Positions 2,458-31,884 of a stretch of 32,676 nt of DNA are shown here, one piece after another. Each line of letters opens with the position of its first letter. The first letter of the stretch is position 1. A program made the translations under genes and the position numbers. The DNA is from Acholeplasma laidlawii. Its GTDB lineage: Bacteria > Bacillota_I > Bacilli_A > Acholeplasmatales > Acholeplasmataceae. The stretch is taken from contig NZ_JADNRS010000012.1 of the NCBI RefSeq assembly GCF_015709225.1, positions 1 to 32,676 of the forward strand, read 5' to 3'. Under the pieces are notes generated by a model, which was not told where the DNA came from, ran no database searches, and saw only the letters and a list, made by a program, of their open reading frames with translations.

Positions 2458-2486
2458 TTGACAAATATAAAAAAATAAGGTAAATT
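2458..2486 (+). promoter_or_regulatory. Promoter for the rod-shaped RNA
   Basis: TTGACA (2458-2463), 17 bp spacer, TAAATT (2481-2486). Transcription would start around 2491-2494, at the base of the closing stem of the RNA. No ribosome binding site or plausible reading frame follows on this strand. Confidence 0.65.
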
Positions 2487-2490
2487 AAAG

Positions 2491-2645
2491 GTGCCTAGGA
2501 AGTACCCGTGGAACCCAAACATATCTTTTAGGGAATTAAACCATACTGGAGTTGAAGGCCAAATTAACACTTGGAATCCCAACGTATGTGTATAGGAAAT
2601 TCCCACTTAAAAATAAGAGATTCCAACTCCTTCCTAGGTTTTTAT
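2491..2645 (+). ncRNA. ssrS: Rod-shaped non-coding RNA, candidate 6S RNA
   Basis: The segment between galU and the M42 gene folds as one long interrupted hairpin. Nested pairings seen by eye: CCTAGGAAG 2494-2502 with CTTCCTAGG 2630-2638 (9 bp closing stem), TGGAA 2509-2513 with TTCCA 2621-2625, TTTTA 2526-2530 with TAAAA 2608-2612, GGGAATT 2531-2537 with AATTCCC 2598-2604, CATAC 2542-2546 with GTATG 2584-2588, GTTG 2551-2554 with CAAC 2580-2583, and CCAA 2559-2562 with TTGG 2571-2574. A near-consensus promoter sits just upstream, and the closing stem runs into TTTTTATTTTA, so it can also act as terminator. A rod with a closing stem, a large loosely paired central region (2514-2530 against 2605-2620) and a long terminal arm is the architecture of 6S RNA, which binds the housekeeping RNA polymerase. 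The length of about 155 nt is shorter than the 180-200 nt typical of 6S. That it is a structured RNA is fairly sure; the 6S identity is an inference. Confidence 0.6.
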
Positions 2646-2683
2646 TTTACCCTTTAAAAACAGTTTAGAATGGACACATACAT

Positions 2684-3721
2684 ATGAAAAAACACATTGA
2701 AAAATTAAATAGATTAACACAATTACATGCAATCGCATCCAATGAAGTAGAAGTGACGAGTTATTTAGAATCTACACTAAAAGGTCAAATCAAAAAAGAT
2801 AGACTTGGCTCTATTGTTGCATCAACTGGGCAAGGTAGAGCAGTTTTAATTACAGCACCTATTGATGAGGTGGGTATGATTATTACTCAGGTAACCAAAC
2901 AAGGTCTACTTAAATTTCAAAATGTTGGCTTCATGCATGCTAAGAACTCGATAAATCAATTATTTTTAGTTACAACCAAAAATAAATCTTTTATAGCTAC
3001 ATTAATTGGTAAGCCTTTAACCTATCAATCAGGTGAAGAATTATCTAAAGTAGAAGACTTTAAGTCACTTTATCTAGATGCTGGTTTTAAATCGGATAAA
3101 GAAGCATTTGATAAAGGTATTCAAATTGGAGATATGGTAACGCGCTATGCTGAATTTAAGTCGCTTGAAAACGATCGTTTTATCTCAAAAGCTTTAGACA
3201 CGAGATCATCTGTTTATGTATTAAGTGAACTTTTAGAAGAAGTAGAAAACTTAAAAGTAGCACTTAATGCTGCATTTACTGTTCAAAATAAGATGAACAT
3301 GAAAGGTGCTAAAACTGCAAGTTACATGATAGAACCTGAGCTAGCAATCAGTTTAGATACAATGGAAAGTACAGATCATACAATACCTGATTTTATTAAA
3401 TTAGGTGGCGGACCTGTGATTAGCTTCTATGACCAAGGCTTAATCGCTCATCCAAAATTAAGAAATTATGTACTTAACTTGTGTAAACTTAATGAAATTC
3501 CTTATCAAGAAGCGCACCAACAATCAGTTTTAAGTGAAGGACATTACCTTCAACTATCAAAATTAGGTGCTGCAACCTTATCCATTGGTATACCCATTAA
3601 AAATAAACATTCACATCATCAAATGATAGACTATTCTGACTTAGTTCATACTAAAAAGTTACTAAAACTATTTGTTGAATCCTTAAATGATAAAATCATA
3701 GATGAAATATTATATACATAA
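2684..3721 (+). CDS. M42-family aminopeptidase homologue, probably inactive
   Basis: At 345 residues this has the length and layout of M42 (glutamyl aminopeptidase/endoglucanase-type) metallopeptidases. Typical surroundings are kept: ITAPIDEVGMIIT (56-68), SKALDTRSS (168-176), FTVQNKMNMKGAKTA (198-212), LGGGPVISF (240-248) and IGIPIKNKHSHH (301-312). Active members have H-x-D-E in the first motif, a Glu-Glu pair in the third and a T-D-A block before the last metal His. Here the first His is Pro59, the Glu-Glu pair is Asn202-Lys203, and the T-D-A block appears replaced around Glu285-His287. Asp172, Asp225 and His309 remain. Loss of one metal ligand and of the catalytic Glu pair predicts no peptidase activity. 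The reading frame is otherwise intact, so it looks like a kept pseudo-enzyme rather than a decaying gene. The start ATG at 2684 has no strong Shine-Dalgarno sequence. It is followed by a strong terminator. Confidence 0.85.
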   Translation: MKKHIEKLNRLTQLHAIASNEVEVTSYLESTLKGQIKKDRLGSIVASTGQGRAVLITAPIDEVGMIITQVTKQGLLKFQNVGFMHAKNSINQLFLVTTKNKSFIATLIGKPLTYQSGEELSKVEDFKSLYLDAGFKSDKEAFDKGIQIGDMVTRYAEFKSLENDRFISKALDTRSSVYVLSELLEEVENLKVALNAAFTVQNKMNMKGAKTASYMIEPELAISLDTMESTDHTIPDFIKLGGGPVISFYDQGLIAHPKLRNYVLNLCKLNEIPYQEAHQQSVLSEGHYLQLSKLGAATLSIGIPIKNKHSHHQMIDYSDLVHTKKLLKLFVESLNDKIIDEILYT

Positions 3722-5658: not shown

Positions 5659-5668
5659 GTATATGATC

Positions 5669-5807
5669 AACTTCGGGGAGTCCACGTAATGGACTGAGAG
5701 GACTTTAATCAAGTCGACCCGTTAAACCTGATCTGGGTGATGCCAGCGGAGGGAAAGTTATAATATTTTTTAACTTTTTATTTCTTTGGCCCCGAAGAAA
5801 TTTTTTT
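5669..5807 (+). promoter_or_regulatory. TPP riboswitch with transcription attenuator
   Basis: The aptamer spans about 5669-5759 and has the classic THI-box blocks: CTGAGAGG (5694-5701), then ACCCGTTAAACCTGATCTGG (from about 5717), then TGCCAGCGGAGGGAAAGTT up to 5759. P1 can form between AACTT 5669-5673 and AAGTT 5755-5759. Downstream, ATTTCTT 5780-5786 pairs with AAGAAAT 5795-5801 and is followed by a T run ending at 5807, a weak intrinsic terminator. CTTCGGGG at 5671-5678 is perfectly complementary to CCCCGAAG at 5790-5797. That 8 bp helix would break both the aptamer and the terminator and so serve as antiterminator when TPP is absent. Bound TPP should therefore turn thiT off. Confidence 0.93.
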
Positions 5808-5827
5808 ATTTCCAAGGAGGAAGAAAT

Positions 5828-6454
5828 ATGAATCAAAATAGGATTCAGATAAGAAATGTGGTCATCGTATCCACATTACTAGCGATAGCTATCGCACTCG
5901 ATGTCATAACAGGTTTGATACCTGGACTTAATCTATCCATGCCTTTAGGCGGTAGATTATTTAACATATCATTATTACCAATTATAATGATAGGTATATT
6001 TTTAGGGCCGGTTTACGGCATTGTAGGGGCTGTAACTTATGGTTTATTTGGATTTTTTTATGATGGCTATGCCTTAAGTTATTTTGCTACAAATTTGAGT
6101 GAAGCGCTCTTAGTCTTTTTCTTAGACTATATTGTGGCATTTGGTACACTTGGGTTAAGTGGATTCTTCAAAAAGGCACTTGACTCACGTATTTGGTTTA
6201 GTATCACTGCAGTTGTTGTACTATTAATTAGGTGGTTATCATCTACAATAGTAGGAGCAATCCTTTGGGCATCATATGCATCAGGCAGTGAGTTTACACA
6301 AAACTTAATGGCTAGTGTGAATCAAAATGCATTTATCTATTCAGGTATATACAATATAATTTATACTTTAACCACTGCATTAAGTATCATCATTATTGGT
6401 AGTTTAGCACTACCTCAGTTTAAAGAATTAAAACTACAGTTTGGATCAAATTAA
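5828..6454 (+). CDS. thiT: Thiamine transporter substrate-binding subunit ThiT (ECF type)
   Basis: Integral membrane S-component that captures thiamine and works with the shared energy-coupling module (two ATPases and EcfT), which is not in this window. I chose the ATG at 5828 because AAGGAGG lies at 5814-5820; a longer frame from TTG 5786 would begin inside the attenuator hairpin. The resulting 208 residues contain about six hydrophobic segments. ThiT-like features include LGPVYGIVGAVTYGLFGFF, LSYFATNLSEALLVFFLDYI, and IVGAILWASYASGS followed by IYNIIY; these regions line the thiamine site in known ThiT proteins. The TPP riboswitch upstream supports thiamine as substrate rather than another vitamin. 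The last 9 nt overlap the end of convergent recU. Confidence 0.9.
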   Translation: MNQNRIQIRNVVIVSTLLAIAIALDVITGLIPGLNLSMPLGGRLFNISLLPIIMIGIFLGPVYGIVGAVTYGLFGFFYDGYALSYFATNLSEALLVFFLDYIVAFGTLGLSGFFKKALDSRIWFSITAVVVLLIRWLSSTIVGAILWASYASGSEFTQNLMASVNQNAFIYSGIYNIIYTLTTALSIIIIGSLALPQFKELKLQFGSN

Positions 6455-9383: not shown

Positions 9384-10622
9384 TTATCCTTTCCTTTTAT
9401 ATCCTTTAATATTATCAATAAGTTTTAATCGATCTTTAAGTGCTTTTTCATAAGCACTTTCATCTTTAGGTACATAATACGTTTTATCCAGTAAGTTATC
9501 AGGCAAGTGTGTTTGACTATTTAACGAGCCCGGATCGTTATGAGGGTATTTGTAGCTATCTGGATGTTGTTTAATATATTTGTTATCGATATGTTTTGGT
9601 ATAGGTCCTGCTAAACCATTTTGGAAATCTTCCATAGCATTATCTAGTGCAGTATAAGCAGTGTTAGATTTAGGAGATAATGCCATATCTACAACTATGA
9701 CAGATAAAGGTATTCTTGCTTCAGGTAAACCAGTCATTTTAGCAGCTTGAATCGCTGCTAATACCTTTTGACCCATGGTCGGATTTGCAAGTCCTATATC
9801 TTCATAGGCAATAACAATCAATCTCCTAAAAATGATTTCCAAGTCCCCGAGTGTTAAGAGTCTGGCTAGATAGTGAATTGAAGCATCAACATCAGAACCT
9901 CTAATAGACTTTTGTAGTGCACTTAACATTTCAAAATAGTGGTTTTCATGATCATCTAAGGATAGTTGCGGTTTACCTGCAAGTTTCCTTATGATGTTAG
10001 AAGTAATTTTTTGCCCATCATCAACAACTAATGAGGCACTTTCAAGTAAATTGAGTGCTGAACGAATTTCAGAATTAGATGCCCTAATAATGGCTGCTAG
10101 TGCATCATCAGTTAATTGGATATCATGATCTAAATATTGAATCGCATTCAGTATAGCAGCTTCAATGTCCTTATCACTAAGCGCTTTAATTTCATATAAA
10201 TGACAACGACTACGAATCGCCATATTAATACTTTGATATGGATTAAGGGTTGTTAAACCAATCATGATGGCCTTACCACTTTCTAAAAATGGTAAAAGGT
10301 AGTCTTGAATATCTGTTTTCATACGATGAATCTCATCAACGATAATGAGTACATCATGATATGCTGTCATATCTAAAATATCTTTTAATTTAGCTTTGTT
10401 GTCAGTTGAAGCATTAAAAAAATAAGTATCCAACATGGATTTATCAGAAAAGAGTTTTGCGATTGTAGTTTTACCTGTACCTGGTGGCCCATATAAGATA
10501 AAAGACAAGTACTTTTTCTTTTCTATCATTTTGGTTAATACGCCATGTTTACTTAGTAAATGGTCTTGGCCATATACTTCATCAAAATTTTTAGGTCGCA
10601 TGCGACTTGCTAGTGGTTCCAT
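9384..10622 (-). CDS. rarA: Replication-associated recombination ATPase RarA (MgsA)
   Basis: AAA+ ATPase of the clamp-loader family that acts at stalled replication forks. Walker A is GPPGTGKT (45-52) and Walker B is VLIIVDEIHR (91-100); sensor and arginine-finger region IGLTTLNPYQSINMAIRSRC follows. The C-terminal MgsA domain contains RGSDVDASIHYLARLL, AYEDIGLANP, ALDNAMEDFQNG and PIPKHI. The 412 residues are full length. AGGAGGATC is the ribosome binding site and TGA-TATAAT on the minus strand the likely promoter. It leads a two-gene unit with the DJ-1/PfpI gene. Confidence 0.95.
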   Translation of the reverse strand: MEPLASRMRPKNFDEVYGQDHLLSKHGVLTKMIEKKKYLSFILYGPPGTGKTTIAKLFSDKSMLDTYFFNASTDNKAKLKDILDMTAYHDVLIIVDEIHRMKTDIQDYLLPFLESGKAIMIGLTTLNPYQSINMAIRSRCHLYEIKALSDKDIEAAILNAIQYLDHDIQLTDDALAAIIRASNSEIRSALNLLESASLVVDDGQKITSNIIRKLAGKPQLSLDDHENHYFEMLSALQKSIRGSDVDASIHYLARLLTLGDLEIIFRRLIVIAYEDIGLANPTMGQKVLAAIQAAKMTGLPEARIPLSVIVVDMALSPKSNTAYTALDNAMEDFQNGLAGPIPKHIDNKYIKQHPDSYKYPHNDPGSLNSQTHLPDNLLDKTYYVPKDESAYEKALKDRLKLIDNIKGYKRKG

Positions 10623-17128: not shown

Positions 17129-18832
17129 ATGAGTACATATAGCCATCATAATAATGAATTAACAATTAAAAATTTAAATGAAACCGTCTTTTTAAAAGGG
17201 TGGGTTTCTAAGGTTAGAAACTTAGGTGGACTTATTTTTATGGACCTTAGAGACCAATATGGTATTACACAATTAGTTGTAAGACCAAATAGTGCACTCT
17301 ATGAACGTGCAAGTCAAGTAAGATCTGAGTATGTTGTAGAAGTTAAAGGTATTGTCATTGAACGTGAATCTAAAAATAAATTCATGACAACTGGAGATAT
17401 TGAAATTGATGTTATTGAACTAAATATTTTAAATACAGCCATGACAACACCAATTACTATTTCAGAACAAGATAATATTTCAGAAGAAGTTCGATTAAAA
17501 TATAGATATTTAGATTTAAGAAAGCCAACATCAAAAAACTATTTATTACAAAGAAGTAAGATTACTCAAAGTATTAGAAATTCTTTACTTAAAAATAACT
17601 TCTTAGAGTTAGAAACGCCATACTTAGTTAAAACAACACCAGAAGGTGCTAAAGAGTTTATTGTACCTTCAAGACTTTATCATGGTGAAGGTTATGCACT
17701 TGCACAATCTCCTCAAATGTTTAAACAATTATATATGGTATCTGGCTTTGAAAAATACTTCCAATTTGCTAGATGTTTTAGAGATGAAGACTTAAGAGCT
17801 GACCGTCAATTAGAGTTCACTCAAATTGACATTGAAGCATCATTTATTAATCAAGAAGATATTATGAAACTTGGTGAAGAAATGATGTCAAGTATGTTTG
17901 AAGACATCTTAGGTAAAGAATTAAAATTACCAATAGCACGACTAACATATAAAGATGCTTTTGATATGTACGGCTCAGATAAACCAGACTTAAGATATGA
18001 ATTAAAAATTGAAGACTTAACAGAAAAGCTAAGTACTTATCAAGTACCTTTATTTGAATCTAAAGCATCCTTAAGAGGCTTTACTTTACCAAATAATGCT
18101 TTATTTACACGTAAATACTTTGACAAATTAACAGAAATTGTTAAGAAAAACCATGGAGATACACTTGCATATGTGAAACATGAAGGTGGTCAACTAAGTG
18201 GTTCGGTGGCTAAATTTTTTGATGAAAACGTAGTTGCTGATGGTTATACATTATTTATCGTGCCAGGTACTTATGAAGGTGCAACCAATGCTTGTGGTGC
18301 CTTAAGAAAAGAATTAGCCAAAGATTTAGGTTATATCGATGATACTTTAGAAAGTTTAGTATGGATTGTTGACTTCCCATTATTTGAATATAGTGAAGAA
18401 GATCAAAGATTATATGCTAGACACCATCCATTTACAGCACCTAAAGATTTAGAAGACTTTAGAAACAATCCAAAAGATACATTAGCCAAAGCTTATGACC
18501 TTGTATGGAATGGTTATGAAATTGGTGGCGGATCAATGCGTATTTATAACCAAGAAGTTCAAAATGAAATGTTTGAAAAATTAGGATTTACGCAAGAAGA
18601 AATCAGAAATAAATTTGGATTCTTCATTGATGCATTAAAATATGGTACACCACCACATGGTGGTATTGCATTCGGATTAGACAGAATTGTAATGCTTGCA
18701 ACTAAGACAGACAACATTAGAGACGTTATTGCGTTCCCTAAGACACAATCCGCTAGAGATATTATGATGGAATCTCCAAGTCCAATTGATAAACTCCAAT
18801 TAGAGGACTTAGGATTGAAGGTGATTAAATGA
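17129..18832 (+). CDS. aspS: Aspartyl-tRNA synthetase
   Basis: Class II synthetase that charges tRNA-Asp. The N-terminal OB-fold anticodon-binding domain (LKGWVSKVRNLGGLIFMDLR) is followed by the class II core (RYLDLRKPTSKNY; QSPQMFKQLYMVSGFEKYFQ; FRDEDLRADRQLEFTQIDIE). The bacterial-type GAD insertion spans about 280-400, and motif 3 (GIAFGLDRIVMLATKTDNIR) is near the C-terminus, with IAFPKTQSARDIM after it. The 567 residues are slightly shorter than in Bacillus but complete. The stop TGA overlaps the msrA ATG by 4 nt. Confidence 0.97.
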   Translation: MSTYSHHNNELTIKNLNETVFLKGWVSKVRNLGGLIFMDLRDQYGITQLVVRPNSALYERASQVRSEYVVEVKGIVIERESKNKFMTTGDIEIDVIELNILNTAMTTPITISEQDNISEEVRLKYRYLDLRKPTSKNYLLQRSKITQSIRNSLLKNNFLELETPYLVKTTPEGAKEFIVPSRLYHGEGYALAQSPQMFKQLYMVSGFEKYFQFARCFRDEDLRADRQLEFTQIDIEASFINQEDIMKLGEEMMSSMFEDILGKELKLPIARLTYKDAFDMYGSDKPDLRYELKIEDLTEKLSTYQVPLFESKASLRGFTLPNNALFTRKYFDKLTEIVKKNHGDTLAYVKHEGGQLSGSVAKFFDENVVADGYTLFIVPGTYEGATNACGALRKELAKDLGYIDDTLESLVWIVDFPLFEYSEEDQRLYARHHPFTAPKDLEDFRNNPKDTLAKAYDLVWNGYEIGGGSMRIYNQEVQNEMFEKLGFTQEEIRNKFGFFIDALKYGTPPHGGIAFGLDRIVMLATKTDNIRDVIAFPKTQSARDIMMESPSPIDKLQLEDLGLKVIK

Positions 18833-31506: not shown

Positions 31507-31884
31507 GCATTATGGAATTAGGAAGGTGACTGAGCGAATCTTTATGATTCGTTAGGAAAGTCCATGCTAGCACACACCTTATAGGTGTGTAGTGTTTGTG
31601 CTAAGGGAAATCATAACCTTAGGTATGTTGTATAAACATAACGGCAAACTAGTTATAGCTAAGGTGTTTCACTACGTTATAACTTAAATTAAAGTGCCAC
31701 AGAGACGAATCTATTTAGAAATAAATAGAGTGAAACGCGGTAAACCCCTCAAGCTAGCAACCCAAATTAGGTAGGGGCACATGATGTGTAGCAATACAAC
31801 ATCATGCAAGATTTGAATCTTGAGATTAATAGTCACAAAAGAAGAAATTCTTTACAGAACATGGCTTATGCACTAATTCATATG
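31507..31884 (+). ncRNA. rnpB: RNase P RNA, class B
   Basis: The catalytic RNA that trims the 5' leader of tRNA precursors. P1 is formed by TATG-G-AATTAG (31511-31521) with CTAATT-CATA (31873-31882). Conserved regions are present in order: TTAGGAAAGTCCATGCTAGC (from about 31552), GTGCCACAGAGACGAATCT, GAAACGCGGTAAACCCCTCA (from about 31731), AGCAACCCAAAT, and ACAGAACATGGCTTATG near the 3' end (31854-31870). The Bacillus-like AAACCCCTC block and the arrangement fit class B. It fills the otherwise gene-free stretch between the small membrane protein and gdpD, and has a consensus-like promoter and strong terminator. Confidence 0.96.

Follow-up and report, generated by a model that had tools for sequence, protein, structure and literature searches.

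The window, a 32,676-nt stretch of Acholeplasma laidlawii DNA, carries an RNA gene of about 155 nt that we take, with a probability of about 95%, to be the organism's only 6S RNA gene: short and diverged, with its own sigmaA-type promoter, and encoding an RNA that would sequester RNA polymerase and template pRNA. 6S RNA, a small RNA, holds back RNA polymerase by mimicking an open promoter. With this assignment, the range of 6S RNA grows to include the Acholeplasma family and its order, in whose tested genomes the Rfam 6S model reported none, and a naturally short 6S RNA, of about 150 nt, becomes available. In the literature searched, no link was found between 6S RNA and Acholeplasma or other Mollicutes, although the 6S surveys of 2005 and 2014 lay outside that search and may hold a prior mention.

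A full-length match to two covariance models described below, R1 and R2, places the RNA at 2491-2645 on the forward strand. The predicted transcript spans 2491 to 2645 or 2648. It is flanked by galU (1578-2438) on its 5′ side and, 36 nt beyond its 3′ end, by an M42 peptidase gene (2684-3721). A promoter scan and the homologues identified a -35 element, TTGACA, at 2458-2463 (+) and, after a 17-nt spacer, a -10 element, TAAATT, at 2481-2486 (+), with 10 of 12 consensus matches. Because of the position of this promoter, the start site should lie near 2491-2493, and the 5′ end of the RNA is 4 to 6 nt beyond the -10 element. The original prediction had given an interval of 2458-2650, of which the RNA part stands, but its start is that of the promoter. 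The distance from promoter to RNA is fixed in the homologues of the family, nearly all of which have TTGACA or a close variant, and their -10 element reads TAAATT, TAAAGT, or TATAGT. As the flanking genes differ among family members while this distance stays fixed, the RNA gene is free-standing. At its other end, a U-rich tract (TTTTTATTTT, 2639-2648, +) immediately follows the closing stem, and the T-run is kept in homologues. The 3′ strand of that stem and the U-tract probably double as a terminator; a scan of the element for short-loop terminators was negative, since the closing stem encloses the whole RNA. No sense-strand open reading frame of at least 60 amino acids was found over the RNA, and an antisense frame overlapping it (2382-2606, -) was discarded as a mechanical call without support. 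The proposal of a free-standing structured RNA gene between galU and the M42 gene, with a -35/17/-10 promoter, a U-rich end, and no reading frame, was thus borne out. Like 6S RNA genes, it has its own promoter and its own 3′ end and is typically present once per genome.

The RNA forms a rod with a closing stem, an open center, and a long apical arm, a 6S-like shape supported by covariation. As had been noticed from the sequence, the closing stem P1 is a perfect 9-bp helix, between CCUAGGAAG (2494-2502) and CUUCCUAGG (2630-2638), and it covaries (helix 1). P2, the "downstream" helix, pairs GUGGAA (2508-2513) with UUCCAAC (2621-2627) in the MFE fold. The center comprises a 5′ bubble (2514-2530) with a near-invariant CCCAAA and a 3′ bubble (2605-2620) that starts with A2605-C2606, the end of a conserved CCCAC. 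The distal part of the 5′ bubble, AUCUUUU (2523-2529), can pair with AAGAGAU (2615-2621) in the MFE fold, resembling a bubble collapse. P3 (GGGAAUU, 2531-2537, with AAUUCCC, 2598-2604) covaries, P4 (CAUAC, 2542-2546, with GUAUG, 2584-2588) gives the strongest covariation, and a further helix joins CCAA (2559-2562) to UUGG (2571-2574).

The MFE of -40.0 kcal/mol (z = -2.2 versus dinucleotide shuffles, 4 of 200 of which were as good) is a modest signal when taken alone. Together, conservation, covariation, and the conserved promoter place the RNA gene far beyond chance. In an unfitted MAFFT alignment of 18 sequences, 89% of the cells were paired and 16 pairs had changed on both sides; none of 500 shuffles reached either value, and sliding the partners by one base dropped the pairing to 49%. 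With 56 sequences, both-sided changes were seen in 33 of 35 pairs, in an alignment that was fitted to the model and leans toward structure. Because P2 pairs hardly vary within the family, the family-internal data neither support nor refute this helix; in the wide alignment it was 96% paired, with both-sided changes (helices 2 and 3). Given those changes in the wide, model-fitted alignment, a tiny UGG/CCA hairpin called by RNAalifold was dropped in favor of P2. A reverse-strand match of R1 (2487-2641, -, 22.9 bits) reflects the near-palindrome of the rod and is not a second gene.

Comparison with the Rfam 6S model, proposed with the original prediction, did not by itself show the identity of the RNA. 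With RF00013, the RNA scored 18.6 bits, short of the gathering cut-off of 46.4 bits, which is a detection criterion and not a biological one. A scan of the whole genome with this model reported nothing, and the best score among relatives with a reported match was 21.8 bits, far below the cut-off. No Rfam family exceeded its cut-off at the RNA, and low-scoring opposite-strand matches to a plant miRNA and a C. difficile sRNA were rejected as chance. For an independent test, we built R1 from 18 Acholeplasma-family sequences only, with no known 6S RNA included, and searched 198 genomes of the class with it and with RF00013. R1 matched 24 genomes outside the order; 11 of them were also positive with RF00013, and in all 11 the matches fell on the same place and strand, which upholds the suggested 6S identity. 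Seven of these 11 shared RF00013 matches were above the cut-off, with scores in the shared genomes including 72.7 bits (G205), 57.8 bits (G103), and 53 bits (G177). R2, a broader model to which six class sequences were added, coincided with RF00013 in 53 of 55 matches. One exception, in G069, falls just beside tandem 6S copies, and the other, in G196, may be a second 6S gene. The tandem locus (L032, G069:C73:3309-3882) probably comprises three 6S RNA copies, of which the Rfam model lists two. In the same scan, 13 class genomes matched by R1 and 33 matched by R2 (e.g., G128, G134, and G146) were RF00013 negative; the alignment and the two models thus also yield putative 6S RNAs in further families, and one such candidate, L080, reaches 38 bits when a short stretch is searched.

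The motifs of 6S RNA are retained, in the same order. The apical motif GGAGUUGAAGGCC...UUGGAAUCC (2548-2579, +) is the counterpart of GGuGuGcAaGCC...GGAAgCC in Rfam 6S RNA; it preserves GGUGUGAA.GCC...GGAAUCC and is followed by the CCCAC of the 3′ bubble. Firmicutes 6S RNA (RF00013; B. subtilis 6S-1, bsrA) has GuGuG.AaGCC...GGAAgCC and then CCCAC in identical order, as well as the closing stem, P2, central bubble, P3, and covarying apical arm, its own promoter, and a single gene. Bridging homologues link the two: L034 and L052 exceed the RF00013 gathering threshold, and L034 reads GGUGUGAAUGCCC...GGGAAUCCUAAA...CCCACC. The 6S RNA of G205, aligned to both models, shows the common blocks GGUGUGAAUGCCC, GGGAAUCCUAAA, and CCCACC. 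The Acholeplasma RNA differs from Firmicutes 6S RNA in its subthreshold RF00013 score, its place after galU, its length (about 155 versus 185 to 200 nt), and its 5′-bubble template CCCAAA, which is specific to its lineage. The doubt first raised over the length is resolved, as 6S RNAs of about 150 to 165 nt, detected with Rfam's own model, occur in the same class.

The location after galU had been the other source of doubt, which is answered by homologues that adjoin aspS or have rarA nearby. L128, from another family of the class, has the RNA 31 bp after apt-rel-hisS-aspS; L127, from the same order, and L129 have it near rarA. This hisS-aspS or rarA vicinity in the bridging genomes is the usual neighborhood of Firmicutes 6S RNA; rarA is a standard 6S neighbor in lactic acid bacteria and is near 6S-1 in B. 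subtilis (PMC8414754). In the window, where the RNA adjoins galU and the M42 gene, rarA (9384-10622) is about 7 kb off and aspS (17129-18832) about 15 kb off, with rarA, apt, rel, dtd, hisS, and aspS all between 9.4 and 18.8 kb. Since the genes from rarA to aspS are kept, the RNA is in the same region, and exact adjacency was lost; 6S neighbors do differ between lineages. A 491-amino-acid protein without a Pfam match (106-1581, +) has its gene close to that of the 6S RNA in the whole family, as well as in a second family of the order, with or without an intervening galU.

In the known 6S mechanism, the bubble occupies the polymerase active site and pRNA synthesis frees the enzyme (PMC8876501). 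The anatomy of the RNA fits this scheme. Transcribed from its own sigmaA-type promoter, possibly under growth-phase control, the rod with its open central bubble would imitate melted promoter DNA and fill the active site of the sigmaA-RNA polymerase; RpoD is encoded in the genome. The 5′ bubble (2514-2530) would serve as template for a short pRNA that the polymerase begins opposite C2520 or A2519. As this pRNA grows into the 5′ strand of P2, the helix would open, the bubble would refold, and the enzyme would be freed. The near-invariant GUGGAACCCAAA predicts a pRNA GUUUGGGUUCC for a start opposite 2520 or UUUGGGUUCC for 2519, and we infer the start site that gives the predicted GUUUGGGUUCCAC.... 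The predicted pRNA has GG at positions 5/6 (start at C2520) or 4/5 (start at A2519), and GG at pRNA positions 4/5 or 5/6 has been reported to be conserved outside lactic acid bacteria as well (PMC8414754). In 29 sequences from outside the genus of the window, a GAAC...GUUC hairpin between the 3′ bubble and the 3′ strand of P2 is possible, with a mean of -3.7 kcal/mol against -0.7 kcal/mol for shuffled sequences. In seven related sequences of the window's genus, the hairpin is lost (-0.6 kcal/mol) and the cross-bubble pairing is stronger, at -4.8 kcal/mol, or -3.8 kcal/mol with partners swapped. This contrast between the genus and other lineages, based on computed energies, is suggestive only. 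A 3′-bubble hairpin that competes with P2 is an E. coli-like mode of release, and a cross-bubble collapse helix is B. subtilis-like. It is conceivable, if somewhat doubtful, that the release switch changed type in the family, with the GAAC...GUUC hairpin in most lineages, collapse pairing in the genus Acholeplasma, and no 6S RNA in a small-genome genus, probably the phytoplasmas.

Three other readings were weighed. That no Rfam family is detected at the cut-off and that the RNA is 155 nt long rather than about 185 nt might point to a new class of structured RNA unrelated to 6S, resembling it merely in its rod shape. This is highly improbable, as a model free of 6S sequences lands exactly on known 6S RNAs in 11 of 11 genomes, the motifs are common to both in the same order, and aspS and rarA provide bridging synteny. 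The uORFC-13-1 motif, likewise a structured RNA candidate from Acholeplasma, is a distinct element: it harbors a reading frame and always precedes aroF (PMC8632094). There is also very little chance that the 6S-like RNA acts in cis on the M42 peptidase gene, as a riboswitch or attenuator leader. This gene does lie downstream in many family members, but in the L006, L013, L020, and f5 genomes M42 is either distant or not the next gene, the 3′ end is closed by a stem and a U-rich tract in nearly all homologues, and homologues elsewhere are located after aspS or close to rarA. Cis-regulation of M42 or galU was rejected on account of the changing neighbors.

A 6S descendant with a shifted function is unlikely as well. 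Its precedent is Ms1 of Actinobacteria, an RNA of about 300 nt with extra end hairpins that binds core polymerase without the primary sigma factor (PMC9130861). Divergence past Rfam detection would agree with such a shift, the partner of the Acholeplasma RNA is only predicted, and both RNAs are rods with a central bubble and a 6S-related shape. However, the Acholeplasma RNA is 155 nt long with no end hairpins in its fold, and three near-invariant features, its pRNA template, its apical motif, and the CCCAC in the 3′ bubble, are what retained promoter mimicry would predict.

The RNA was found by blastn in 22 of 41 genomes, its own included, and a better model found one copy each in 37 of the 41 relatives, among them Acholeplasma granularum, Peloplasma aerotolerans, and many Acholeplasmataceae MAGs. 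The comparison proposed with the original prediction, across Acholeplasma and phytoplasma genomes, confirmed conservation and covariation within the family but not among the probable phytoplasmas: R2 detected no copy in 29 genomes of 300 to 900 kb that belong to a single genus of this family, probably Candidatus Phytoplasma, and R1 was likewise negative in members of this genus. SRP RNA, used as a control, was recovered in 27 of the 29 with the same pipeline. Loss of 6S RNA in this genus is likely, even if a remnant that is shorter or very rich in AU might escape detection, and the contrast between keepers and small-genome relatives without a detected 6S RNA lends itself to studying the cost of lacking it. 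Two other RNA elements were noted in the window: a TPP riboswitch (RF00059, 83.1 bits) at 5664-5771 (+), upstream of a membrane protein gene (5786-6454) whose product is probably an ECF-type thiamine transporter subunit, and a bacterial RNase P class B RNA (RF00011, 261 bits) at 31518-31873 (+).
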